Assembly: GCF_000316195.1 (NCBI RefSeq)
Contig: NZ_JH994111.1
Location: forward strand, 628,571-692,570
Length of the DNA: 64,000 bases
Source: Brachyspira hampsonii 30446
Lineage (GTDB): Bacteria; Spirochaetota; Brachyspiria; Brachyspirales; Brachyspiraceae
Direction of reading: 5' to 3'
Under the pieces are notes generated by a model that was not told where the DNA came from, made no database searches, and saw nothing but the letters and a program-made list of their open reading frames with translations. The position numbers and the translations under genes are program-made. Shown here one piece after another: positions 23,513 through 27,759 of the stretch (positions are counted from its first letter, which is position 1; each line of letters starts with the position of its first letter).

Positions 23513-24694
23513 ATGATACCTAGATTACATTTAAAAATAGTAGCAAGATTTAGAGAAGTTTTTGGGCATAAAGGCGATACAAAGCTTTATTTTGCTCCGG
23601 GAAGAGTTACAGTTATAGGAGAGCTTATAGATTATTCAGATGGGGATACTATAACTTCTGCTATAGACAGAGGAACATATATAGTAGCTAGAAAAAGACC
23701 TGATAATAAAGTGAATATATATGCCCATTCTTTTAAAGCTAGAAAATCATTTACATTAGATGATTTAGAAAAGAATAAAGAAGATGAGTGGGCTATTTAT
23801 TTTAAAGGCGTTTATTCTGTACTTTTAGAAAAAGAATATAAAATACATGGTATGGATATATTTGTATATACAGATTTACCTTTTAATACCTCTTTGGCAT
23901 CATCAAGCTCATTATGTGCTTGTTTAACTTTTGCTGCTTTAGATATAAACAATATTAAAGATGTTGCTCCTATTGAAATGGCAAAATTATCTTATGAAGG
24001 CGAAATTAAATATGCATCTCATAGAACATCTTTAAGCGATCATGTTACAATATTTTTAGCCAAAGAGAATACTTTATTTTTCTTTAATATGAAAACACTT
24101 AAATATGAATATTTTGATTTCAATTTAGGTGATTACTGTATGGCTGTTATTAATAGTAACAAAAAAAGAACTTCCAGCGATGGGGAGTATAATGCTAGAA
24201 AAAGAGAATGTGAAAATGCATTAAAGAAACTAAAAGAAAAGAAAAGTTCTTTAAAATCATTGTCTGATTTGAAAGTTAAAGATGCTGATTTTATTAAAGA
24301 AACCTTGCAGAACAAGGAGCAAAGAAGGGCATTATATGTTTCTGCTGAGCAGGATAGGGTTAATCAGGCAGTAAAAGCTATTAAAAAGGGTTCTGTTAAA
24401 GATTTAGCTAATTTGATACTTAAAACTCATGACGGTTTGAGTAAATTATATGAAGTTTCCACTGCAGAATTGGACATTTTGGTTGAAGAGGCTATGAATA
24501 TGGATGGTGTTTTGGGAGCTAGAATGATAGGTACAGGTTTCGGCGGCGGTGTTTTAATGTTTCTCAAAAAGACTGAAGTTGAAAATGTTATAGAAAATTT
24601 ATATACGCGTTATAAAGAAAGAACTAGAAGAGATGCTGATGTTTATATATTAAAATTATCAAGCGGAACTAGAATTTTACCTACAGAAGAGTAA
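23513..24694 (+). CDS. galactokinase-like GHMP kinase
   Basis: 393 aa, normal GalK length. The N-terminal galactokinase signature is present but altered: APGRVTVIGELIDYSDG (28-44), where the sugar-binding Glu-His is Glu37-Leu38; Arg31 and Asp40 are kept. The ATP-binding GHMP motif is LPFNTSLASSSS (122-133), lacking the usual glycines. The catalytic Asp is probably Asp176 in SLSDH (usually GIMDQ). SNKKRTSSDGEYNARKRECE and TGFGGG match GalK well. It is clearly of the galactokinase family, but the substrate may not be galactose. No other gal genes are adjacent. The array of hairpin repeats begins 126 bp after its stop. Confidence 0.7.
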   Translation: MIPRLHLKIVARFREVFGHKGDTKLYFAPGRVTVIGELIDYSDGDTITSAIDRGTYIVARKRPDNKVNIYAHSFKARKSFTLDDLEKNKEDEWAIYFKGVYSVLLEKEYKIHGMDIFVYTDLPFNTSLASSSSLCACLTFAALDINNIKDVAPIEMAKLSYEGEIKYASHRTSLSDHVTIFLAKENTLFFFNMKTLKYEYFDFNLGDYCMAVINSNKKRTSSDGEYNARKRECENALKKLKEKKSSLKSLSDLKVKDADFIKETLQNKEQRRALYVSAEQDRVNQAVKAIKKGSVKDLANLILKTHDGLSKLYEVSTAELDILVEEAMNMDGVLGARMIGTGFGGGVLMFLKKTEVENVIENLYTRYKERTRRDADVYILKLSSGTRILPTEE

Positions 24695-25254
24695 TTTTTA
24701 ATAAAAAATATTTATTTTAAGTATTATATTTTTTGTAGTGTTATATATTATAAATATAGCATTTTTGTATTATATAGTTAATTTTAATGTATTAATATTT
24801 TTATATTGTAAAACAATTAGATATAAACGAGCAGATTATAACTTTAGTTGTAATACATTTTCAGCGAGTTTATATCGTAAAGGGTAGCCGAGATATAAAC
24901 GGGCAGATTATAACTTTAGTTATAATCTATTTTCAGCGAGTTTATATCGTAAAGAGTAACCGAGATATAAACGGGCAGATTATAATTTTAGTTGTAATAC
25001 ATTTTTAGCGAGTTTATATCGAAACAATAGCCGAGATATAAACGGGCAGATTATAATTTTAGTTGTAATACATTTTTAGCGAGTTTATATCGAAACAATA
25101 GCCGAGATATAAACGAGCAGATTATAACTTTAGTTATAATCTATTTTCAGCGAGTTTATATCGAAACAATAGCCGAGATATAAACGAGCAGATTATAACT
25201 TTAGTTATAATCTATTTTCAGCGAGTTTATATCGAAACAATAATAGGACATTTT
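24695..25254. other. gene-free interval between galK-like gene and prfB
   Basis: About 125 bp of AT-rich DNA and then the six-copy hairpin-repeat array (24820-25241), which ends a few bases before the prfB ribosome-binding site. No coding potential is seen. Confidence 0.8.
24820..25241 (+). repeat. six tandem copies of a 71-72 bp hairpin-forming unit
   Basis: Units start at 24820, 24892, 24964, 25035, 25106 and 25177. Each has an outer 9-bp inverted repeat (GATATAAAC with GTTTATATC) and an inner one (ATTATAACT, TT, AGTTATAAT). Joining sequences are of two kinds, GTAAAG(G/A)GTA(G/A)CCGA in the first two units and GAAACAATAGCCGA in later ones. Changes inside the inner stem (T to C-type differences) give G-U pairs in plus-strand RNA, so the stem is kept. 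The last hairpin ends about 11 bp before the prfB RBS (AGGA 25245-25248). Confidence 0.92.
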
Positions 25255-26359
25255 ATGACATTATCAGAAATTAAAAGTATAGTATCTAATATTAAAGAAC
25301 AATCAGAAATATTAAGGGGGTATCTTTGACCCGGATTCTATTTATAAAAGAGTTAAAGAGATAGATGAGATATCAGCCAAAGATGATTTTTGGAATGATA
25401 ATATATCAGCTCAGAAACTTATGAAGGAGAGAATGCTTCTTCTTGATAAAATAGAGCCTGTTGAAAATTTGATAAAGAATTCCAATAATATATATGAATT
25501 GGTAGAAATGGCTATAGAGTCAAATGATACTGAAATGGAAAAAGAATTAGAAGCGGAATGCTTAGAACTGCAGAAAGTTTTTGATGAATTAGAAACAAAG
25601 AATTTATTTTCAGGAGAATTTGACAGTAAGAATGCATATTTAACTTTGAATGCAGGTGCCGGCGGTACTGAGAGCTGCGATTGGGCTTCTATGCTTTCAA
25701 GAATGTATGTAAGATTCTGCGAAAGACATGGGTTTACTGTTGAAACAACCGATGAACTTCCCGGAGATGAAGCAGGAATAAAACAAATAAGTTTTTATGT
25801 TCAGGGGCTTTATGCTTATGGGTATTTGCGTTCAGAGATAGGGGTGCATAGGCTTGTAAGAATATCTCCTTTTGATGCTAATGCTAAAAGACATACTTCA
25901 TTTGTTGCGGTTAGTGTTATGCCGGATATAGATGAAGATATCGAAGTAGAAATAAATCCTGCTGATTTAAGAATAGATACTTACAGAGCCTCCGGAGCAG
26001 GCGGACAGCATGTTAATAAAACTTCATCAGCTATTAGAATAACTCATATACCAACTAATACAGTTGTTCAATGTCAGGCAGAAAGAAGTCAGCATAATAA
26101 TAAAGATATGGCAATGAAAATGCTTAAAGCTAAACTTTATCAATTAGAAAAAGAAAAATTGGATAAAGAAAAGCAAAAAATAGCAGGTGAGAAAACCGAT
26201 ATAGCTTGGGGAAATCAAATAAGAAGCTATGTTTTCCAACCTTATCAAATGGTAAAAGATTTAAGAACGGGATGTGAAAGCGGAAATATGAACTCTGTAA
26301 TGGACGGAAATATAGATGAATTCATATCTGCATATCTTAAACAGCAAATAAAAAAATAA
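25255..26359 (+). CDS. prfB: peptide chain release factor 2, with programmed +1 frameshift
   Basis: Translation starts at ATG 25255 (AGGA six bases upstream) and gives MTLSEIKSIVSNIKEQSEIL then RGYL before an in-frame TGA at 25327-25329. The sequence AGGGGGTATCTTTGAC is the classic RF2 frameshift site: an internal Shine-Dalgarno-like AGGGGG three bases before CTT-TGA. Slipping +1 on CTT continues as DPDSIYKRVKEIDE and joins the long downstream frame ending at 26359. The product is about 367 aa, normal for RF2. The stop-codon motif is SPF (ISPFDANAKRHTSF) and the peptidyl-release motif is GGQ (SGAGGQHVNKTSS). RF2 reads UGA and UAA, so low RF2 favours frameshifting and self-restores. Confidence 0.96.
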
Positions 26360-26477: not shown

Positions 26478-27059
26478 ATGTTAAAAAAGGTTACACTTGT
26501 ATCTCTTATGATGGCTGTTTTAGTTGTTGCTGTACCTAAGAAAGCTGAAGCTGCTTATTCAGACGGAGCTGCGATAGGAGCTTCTTTATTTTTTGGATAT
26601 CCAAATCAAGGTTTAACATTAGTAGGTCAATTTGACGGAGTACCTTTGATGTTTGGTGTTCAAGCTGTAGCAAATGTATTTAATGATGGTTATCAATATT
26701 TTGGTATTGGTTTAACTATGGATTGGTGGGGACTAAAAATACCTTTGGGTAAAGCAGGGGAATCTGATGTTCATTTCTATTTAGGACCTGGACTTGCTGC
26801 TGACACTGCTTTTGGTTCAGATTATTGGTCAATTAATGCTGGTTTAAGAATGCCTATAGGTTTTTCATTCTTAATTAAAAATCAATGGGAGATATTCTTG
26901 GAACCTGCTCCAGTGGTTAATGTTTTGCATGCTGATAGTTATGGCGTATCTTTGTTAGGTTTTTATCTAGGAGATACTGATGACAGACATAGAAATCGTT
27001 GGAATATAGGACATTTCTTACATTTGACATTCCAAGTTGGATTTAGATATTGGTTCTGA
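26478..27059 (+). CDS. small outer-membrane beta-barrel protein
   Basis: 193 aa. A Sec signal peptide ends with PKKAEAA (~25). The rest is a series of short amphipathic strands with aromatic girdles (LTMDWWGLKIPLGKAG, HFYLGPGLAADTAFG, YWSINAGLRMPIGFSF) and the last residue is Phe in GFRYWF, a beta-barrel assembly signal. It resembles the DUF3996/BAPKO_0422-like spirochaete outer-membrane family. Consistent with that, the strong promoter and RBS suggest an abundant protein. A paralogue follows immediately. Confidence 0.75.
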   Translation: MLKKVTLVSLMMAVLVVAVPKKAEAAYSDGAAIGASLFFGYPNQGLTLVGQFDGVPLMFGVQAVANVFNDGYQYFGIGLTMDWWGLKIPLGKAGESDVHFYLGPGLAADTAFGSDYWSINAGLRMPIGFSFLIKNQWEIFLEPAPVVNVLHADSYGVSLLGFYLGDTDDRHRNRWNIGHFLHLTFQVGFRYWF

Positions 27060-27082
27060 TATTATTAGTTTAGAATATTTAC

Positions 27083-27112
27083 AGCTCCGTTATTTTATAG
27101 CGGGGCTTTTTA
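27083..27112 (+). terminator. terminator after the first outer-membrane protein gene
   Basis: Stem AGCTCCG (27083-27089) with CGGGGCT (27101-27107), one G-U pair, then a T run. Confidence 0.75.
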
Positions 27113-27186
27113 TTTTGATTATAATTTTTCACTTTTTTATATTATTTTTTATATTTATATAAAGTAAATAATTAGGTTTTGTTTAT

Positions 27187-27759
27187 ATGTTAAAAAGAGT
27201 AATAATTTATAGTTTATGTTTTTCGATTTTAATTTCTTTTTTCTCTGCCTCATCTAAACTATATGCAGATTATCCCAATGGTGCTGCGGCAGGATTTTTT
27301 TTGAGATTCAGTTTTCCAAGTCAGGCTTCTTTAGGAGTAACAGGTAAAATCGATAATTTTCCATTGATGTTTAGCGGCATATTAAATATAGGAATATCAA
27401 GTAAGGGATGGGCTTGGTTTGGTCTTAGTGCCAATGCTGATTGGTGGGCTTTAAAATATAATATAGGAAAAGCAGGTAATTCTGATGCTTGGCTTTATTT
27501 TGGTCCTGGAGCTGAGGCTGTTGCAGAGTTTGGAAATAATTATTGGAATTTAGGTTTAGGTTTTAGGCTTCCTTTAGGAGTTTCTTTTATAGTTGATATG
27601 GATTGGGAAATATTTTTGCAGGTTTCGCCAGGGCTTAATGTAATATCTATAGGAAGTGACGGCTTTGGAACTTTTGGCTGGTATCCTAGTCATACGGGTT
27701 GGACTTTTTCTAAATTCTTCAGATTCTCAGGAGATTTCGGATTTAGATATTGGTTTTGA
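27187..27759 (+). CDS. small outer-membrane beta-barrel protein, paralogue
   Basis: 190 aa with signal peptide (cleavage likely after ASSKLYA, ~27). It shares the order NADWWALKYNIGKAGNSDAW, YFGPGAEAVAEFG, YWNLGLGFRLPLGVSF and MDWEIFLQVSPGLNV with the preceding gene, and ends in FGFRYWF. The two clearly arose by tandem duplication and have diverged most at the N-terminus and in the loop before the last strands. It is separated from the first by a terminator, so expression is probably independent. Its own promoter is not obvious. Confidence 0.75.
   Translation: MLKRVIIYSLCFSILISFFSASSKLYADYPNGAAAGFFLRFSFPSQASLGVTGKIDNFPLMFSGILNIGISSKGWAWFGLSANADWWALKYNIGKAGNSDAWLYFGPGAEAVAEFGNNYWNLGLGFRLPLGVSFIVDMDWEIFLQVSPGLNVISIGSDGFGTFGWYPSHTGWTFSKFFRFSGDFGFRYWF

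Follow-up and report, generated by a model that had tools for sequence, protein, structure and literature searches.

The hairpin array upstream of prfB in Brachyspira hampsonii: probable local amplification of a dispersed, genus-specific structured element

Comparison with described intergenic repeats

The repeats of the NEMIS/Correia and ERIC types are intergenic and active in mRNA, where documented examples undergo RNase III cleavage or present a site for RNase E (PMC10969869). REP, BIME and REPIN repeats are dispersed extragenic palindromes that go with a RAYT transposase (PMC2817692, PMC3116915), and a REP is defined by a GT(A/G)G head beside a 20-40 nt palindrome (PMC2817692). We describe here a tandem array of hairpins placed before prfB, the gene of RF2, in a 64-kb stretch of the B. 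hampsonii 30446 genome (hereafter the window), together with the dispersed copies of the same element found in this genome and in its relatives.

Like the NEMIS/Correia and ERIC repeats, the Brachyspira element is short, dispersed and intergenic, it folds when transcribed as RNA, and it is present in tens of copies or more. It differs from them in sequence and host, and also by its free stems around a fixed inner motif and tail, its strong gene-strand bias and its tandem arrays. With the REP/BIME/REPIN group it shares dispersed palindromes, complementary stem changes and arrays, but it is ~70 nt long with two nested stems, against 20-40 nt for a REP, and its units lie in direct orientation whereas they alternate in REP-type arrays. 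The GT(A/G)G head was absent from the column frequencies of 76 own-genome copies. A search for a cognate Y1 (RAYT) transposase (PF01797), positive in 5 control genomes, found none in 26 Brachyspira genomes, and mobilisation of the REP/IS200-605 kind was thereby ruled out.

The likeness to MITEs is that both are small, non-coding, dispersed and AT-rich, with inverted-repeat ends (PMC10969869). However, the terminal repeat of the Brachyspira element covaries without sequence conservation (double changes in 9 of the 10 outer pairs), and no parent element was found in searches for Y1 and RVT_1. No short target duplication was found either; the duplications beside the element, of 19-137 bp, are variable in length where a MITE has a fixed one, and may be tandem duplications. 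Integron attC sites have nested stems, a variable loop, the orientation of the preceding gene and an AAC/GTT core. The Brachyspira element shares all but the last of these, AAC/GTT core triplets being present in one subfamily only; an attC site was ruled out, as these triplets and the outer-stem end vary among copies. Tandem repeats with variable copy number, a property that the array shares, are used for typing in the same genus (the Bhyo VNTR loci of B. hyodysenteriae, PMC9714239). Judged on these comparisons, the family can be placed near the mRNA-active intergenic repeats such as NEMIS and ERIC, outside every named family tested.

A known RNA family was also ruled out: none of the Rfam 15 families matched at gathering score for eight loci, and matches in the window stretch were at chance level only. 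A search of the literature open without subscription yielded no published description of the repeat. As far as Rfam and this literature show, it looks like an undescribed, genus-specific structured element.

The six-unit array at the prfB locus

TRF reported a repeat at 24819-25242 (period 71, 5.9 copies, 94% matches), and a 22-base core searched with up to 3 mismatches was found six times, versus 0.00 expected by chance. Together with a check of the stems, these results bear out the initial annotation, in which six units of 71-72 bp with nested inverted repeats had been described. The units, listed in Table 1, cover 24820-25233 with start-to-start spacings of 72, 72, 71, 71 and 71, and all have a fold of two nested hairpins. 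Every unit has a perfect outer stem, GATATAAAC/GTTTATATC; the inner stem, of 10-11 bp with a TT loop, is perfect in units 2, 5 and 6. It had been remarked that differences within the inner stem are kept as G-U pairs in plus-strand RNA. This applies to units 1, 3 and 4, which do carry U.G pairs, but the remark overlooked one or two broken pairs at the base of the same stems (AATCT to AATAC), so that pairing is not preserved throughout the array.

Folded as plus-strand RNA, the units gave -11.7 to -18.9 kcal/mol, with z values of -3.5 to -6.4 relative to shuffles. For unit 3, the minus-strand RNA was much weaker (-7.5 kcal/mol versus -11.7 on the plus strand). Unit 6 is the best of the six matches to the covariance model R2 described below (78.6 bits); its outer stem ends at 25233, leaving 11 nt before the Shine-Dalgarno (SD) sequence of prfB at 25245, the distance initially given. 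No terminator-like site was found in the array/prfB region, and the reading as an intrinsic terminator was dropped; plus-strand promoter-like matches in the same region were weak. The RF2 frameshift site AGGGGG TAT CTT TGA C lies at ~25315-25330 (CTT TGA C near 25324-25330), its CTT being in frame with the ATG at 25255. Beyond prfB, at 26478-27759 of the window, two adjoining, similar genes (193 and 190 aa), apparently tandem paralogues, have starts that resemble signal peptides.

Table 1. Positions of the array units and neighbouring features in the window
Feature	Position	Strand	Remarks
Galactokinase-like GHMP kinase gene, upstream of array	23513..24694	+	co-directional with prfB
Unit 1, nested hairpin, inner stem imperfect at base	24820..24876	+	RNA -14.3 kcal/mol
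Unit 2, nested hairpin, perfect inner stem	24892..24948	+	RNA -18.2 kcal/mol
Unit 3, nested hairpin, U.G and broken basal inner pairs	24964..25020	+	RNA -11.7 kcal/mol
Unit 4, stem-loop identical to unit 3	25035..25091	+	RNA -11.7 kcal/mol
Unit 5, nested hairpin, perfect inner stem	25106..25162	+	RNA -18.9 kcal/mol
Unit 6, SD-proximal nested hairpin, perfect inner stem	25177..25233	+	RNA -18.9 kcal/mol
3' tail of unit 6, GAAACAATAATAG (family consensus UAGCAAUAAUAA), runs into SD	25234..25246	+	
AGGA, Shine-Dalgarno of prfB	25245..25248	+	start codon ATG at 25255
prfB (RF2), programmed +1 frameshift	25255..26359	+	PCRF and RF-1 domains

The array had been proposed to be a structured leader of prfB, tuning RF2 levels jointly with the frameshift. 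Its position flush with the SD, the stable fold of the plus strand and its retention in nine related genomes speak for such a leader: recognisable units precede prfB at 9 of the 24 Brachyspira loci (the own genome, G004, G005, G006, G008 and G022-G025). At the other 15, the array is absent. The array-free species have a short spacer before prfB with a similar AGGA...ATG spacing, and those array-free loci whose sequence was inspected have the frameshift site. Since the array is missing at so many prfB loci, it is unnecessary for RF2 expression or frameshifting. Moreover, the element is not found only or mainly upstream of prfB: in the own genome it occupies ~45 other places, and it precedes unrelated genes at an equal distance from the SD. 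Copies unconnected with prfB, one of the refuting conditions named in the initial annotation, thus do exist. A prfB-only leader was rejected because of these dispersed copies and the 15 array-free loci, and we regard a prfB-specific role in RF2 control as very improbable. What stands of the proposal is a structured, strand-constrained element with its proximal hairpin flush with the SD. Two prfB genes of the set were unusual in their coding sequence: that of G019 (L068, ~1395-1415) reads CTT TAA C at the frameshift site, where CTT TGA C is usual, and that of G010 (L066) contains one internal TAA and is 3 bases longer, by sequence error or gene change.

The nine prfB arrays contain from 1 to 7 recognisable units, further degenerate units being visible in the sequence. 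Internal units have decayed in several species, some of them with broken pairing, so that stem pairing in the relatives is not kept throughout. In 8 of the 9 arrays, no other recognised unit is better paired than the SD-proximal one, a comparison in which several arrays hold just one recognised unit; in the array of the own genome, unit 2 is one base pair better. From species to species the number of copies drifts, in keeping with the turnover of a minisatellite. We therefore weighed the possibility, already raised in the initial annotation, that the unit has no role and that the array is a neutral minisatellite, a by-product of slippage at a hairpin. The differences in copy number, the degenerate internal units and the existence of other tandem arrays with locus-specific periods are in line with it, and it may still account for the copy number at prfB. 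As an explanation of the whole it has little chance of being right, as it leaves the dispersal, the covariation of the family, the orientation bias and the SD-flush spacing without explanation.

A dispersed family with covarying stems and gene-strand orientation

The B. hampsonii 30446 genome (3.04 Mb, 4 contigs) was searched at the DNA level, and related single and tandem copies were found away from prfB. A first covariance model, built from 23 varied copies, gave 57 matches at E<=1 in this genome, including a few in which a palindrome is matched again on the reverse strand; at E<=1e-6, 20 of 26 Brachyspira genomes had copies. With the wider model R2, 70 matches at E<=0.01 were obtained in the own genome, corresponding to roughly 45-50 places; in the window, only the six prfB units and two weak reverse-strand echoes were recovered. 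In an even draw of 149 spirochaete genomes, 18 of the 21 Brachyspira had matches, and none of the ~128 genomes from other spirochaetes did. The exact pattern of one subfamily, compared with 84,980 species, returned Brachyspira records only.

The element is ~70 nt long, with an outer stem of ~10 bp, an inner stem of ~11 bp and a variable loop. Between the stems, an internal motif places GAGC opposite GCGA, forming two G-C pairs and opposed GA steps, and each base of GAGC (5' side) and GCGA (3' side) is conserved at 80-96% among 76 own-genome copies. A T/A-rich bulge of 7-8 nt on the 3' side is conserved, and so is the 3' tail (consensus UAGCAAUAAUAA, seen as TAGCAATAATAA in the column frequencies). 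The label of kink-turn was dropped because the bulge does not adjoin the opposed GA steps. The stems, in turn, differ in both arms from copy to copy: GATATAAAC/GTTTATATC at prfB against GCTATAAAC/GTTTATAGC in another copy, or again AGCAATAAAC/GTTTATTGCT and AGTCATAAAC/GTTTATGACT elsewhere in the own genome, and entire subfamilies have unrelated outer stems (for instance ATAAAAATTGT/ACAATTTTTAT). A fold whose loops are conserved while its stems covary freely usually marks a structured RNA, or else a single-stranded DNA that is recognised.

Covariation of the stems is strong. In 76 distinct own-genome copies, whose alignment was fitted to the model and hence leans towards it, 92.8% of the cells were paired versus 64.2% after shuffling, and both-side changes occurred in 22 of 23 pairs. 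Double-changed cells numbered 489, against 153 in shuffled and at most 103 in slid controls. A structure-free MAFFT alignment (A1) still contained 4 pairs with double changes (39 cells versus 14.1), and covariation was likewise present in alignment A3, which like A5 was fitted to the model. Among the paired cells, G.U exceeded A.C by 95 to 16 (42 to 16 once a wobble-rich pair is removed), a count favoured by the model since it permits G.U. A U.G wobble at one inner pair is retained in half of the copies. Part of the covariation could come from template-switch repair of imperfect palindromes. It is strong enough for an entry as an RNA family.

A second hairpin type, ..GTGAGCCGAAGCC[hairpin]..GGCGAACATAGCAATAATAAAA, was noticed at L172:1500-1844, L175:1300-1850 and L135:1529-3702. 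It has the tail and the opposed GA steps in common with the element, with which it often alternates, and the two look like parts of a wider superfamily.

Orientation was then related to genes, as called by our own ORF analysis. Of the 30 own-genome elements placed between co-directional genes, 27 share the strand of these genes (binomial p 8e-6; 27 to 2 without one weak match). Where the flanking genes converge, 7 of 8 elements adjoin the 3' end of the gene that has their strand. Among the relatives, in a sample chosen by score that includes related loci, 22 elements were on the gene strand and 8 opposite. Copies antisense to both neighbours number 2-3 in the own genome and 8 of 30 in this same sample. 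The gene-strand rule is strong in the family, not absolute. With respect to replication no bias was found in four other Brachyspira genomes (23 of 50, using dnaA positions and a terminus assumed opposite), and an effect of the replication strand was thereby ruled out. That orientation follows genes and not replication suggests that the sense strand is the one under constraint, for which RNA would most simply be the carrier. Covariation, the excess of G.U over A.C and the gene-strand orientation thus uphold the part of the initial proposal that saw a structured element constrained on the transcribed strand.

Many elements begin within ~35 nt after a stop codon. Others are flush with an SD: the tail AACAATAG leads into GAG, and ATG comes next. 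Eight own-genome clusters of this class have a start codon 8-12 nt past the element (prfB and seven unrelated genes), and about ten more were found in the relatives. Judged from their first residues, the genes concerned look like argJ, a symporter, serA and a flavodoxin gene, among others. No function in common was found for the genes flanking the elements. In several species, a flavodoxin-like gene is preceded by an SD-flush element, but the stems have entirely different sequences (L131:2863-2932 compared with L182:1587-1659 and L179:4982-5050).

Duplications, spread and meaning for the family

Tandem arrays exist at several loci, with a period that is locus-specific because the local flank is part of the unit. 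At 14 of 73 loci, the sequence preceding the element recurs behind it, exceeding the 99% level set by mismatched pairs. The repeated stretch, of 19-137 bp, starts at AG|AA in 12 of 19 loci and extends almost to the element's 5' end, and its second copy begins directly after the tail. Direct repeats were observed at L184, L169, L126, L140, L170, L099, L165, L155, L130, L198, L214 and L224, several copies differing at synonymous sites only (e.g. L169, 6 of 6 by eye). A terminase-small-subunit-like gene of prophage/GTA type (L211-L224) is a hot spot, its 3' end carrying the element, tandem copies or remnants in many species. Hairpin-deletion scars AAAGCAATAATAA are present there (L212, L214), and look as if the hairpin had been lost between the 5'-end AGCAATAA and the tail.

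These duplications may reflect insertion with a long target duplication. We do not claim it, because the scars show that tandem duplication plus hairpin loss also explains the pattern; the latter course, with loss of the last hairpin, would be favoured at the terminase-small-subunit-like locus. A simple target-site duplication was set aside for the same reason, although the duplications themselves are real.

The boundaries bear on two further explanations. The family could be a selfish element acting as DNA, i.e. a non-autonomous mobile repeat whose hairpins are recognised in single-stranded form by a putative recombinase; its palindromes would be maintained by the enzyme or by template-switch repair, and its orientation would tell where insertions are tolerated. 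Copies both dispersed and in tandem, duplications with fixed boundaries (at the tail and, for 12 of 19 loci, at AG|AA) and mostly intact palindromes are what such an element would leave. We hold it to be unlikely, given the lack of a Y1 transposase in 26 genomes, an orientation set by genes and not by replication, a U.G wobble kept in half of the copies where palindrome repair should erase it, and outer stems that are not a conserved terminal repeat.

Alternatively, the sense RNA could be converted to DNA in a SINE-like manner, its A-rich tail being joined at AG|AA, with a long and variable target duplication. The constant 3' end with its A-rich tail fits this scheme, as do the duplicated stretches and their AG|AA start, but RVT_1 was missing from the own genome, which rules out a resident reverse transcriptase, and was present in only 7 of 26 genomes; in addition, tandem duplication and hairpin deletion explain the pattern at one locus. 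RNA-templated spread is on these grounds quite improbable. The broader idea of a mobile structured RNA copied sense-wise into gene ends and leaders, with the tail at AG|AA and 19-137 bp duplicated, is improbable as well; if true, it would represent a new kind of bacterial mobile structured RNA.

The explanation that we consider probable is that the array is a locally amplified copy of a dispersed, Brachyspira-only element of ~70 nt, most likely acting as folded RNA in mRNA. One dispersed copy at prfB would have been amplified locally in tandem. As the element is retained mainly on the strand transcribed with the neighbouring gene, it would most likely act as folded RNA inside mRNAs, sitting either directly behind a stop codon or, as at prfB, in a leader where it abuts the SD. 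There, it may influence the stability or processing of the adjoining mRNA, or provide access to, or a defined context for, the SD region. At prfB, probably only the SD-proximal unit matters, and the extra units would turn over like a minisatellite by neutral drift in copy number. For the family as a whole, the best reading is one of mobile-like structured intergenic elements, new in Brachyspira, for which we infer a selfish origin. That the neighbouring duplications have a sequence-specific boundary is a sign of some underlying mechanism.

Brachyspira genomes, across a genus of gut spirochaetes, thus contain tens of copies of this element. Because it stands directly before unrelated start codons and grows in tandem, it offers an explanation for leaders and intergenic spacers that vary, and the family offers a ready test of whether a spreading repeat alters mRNA processing or translation.
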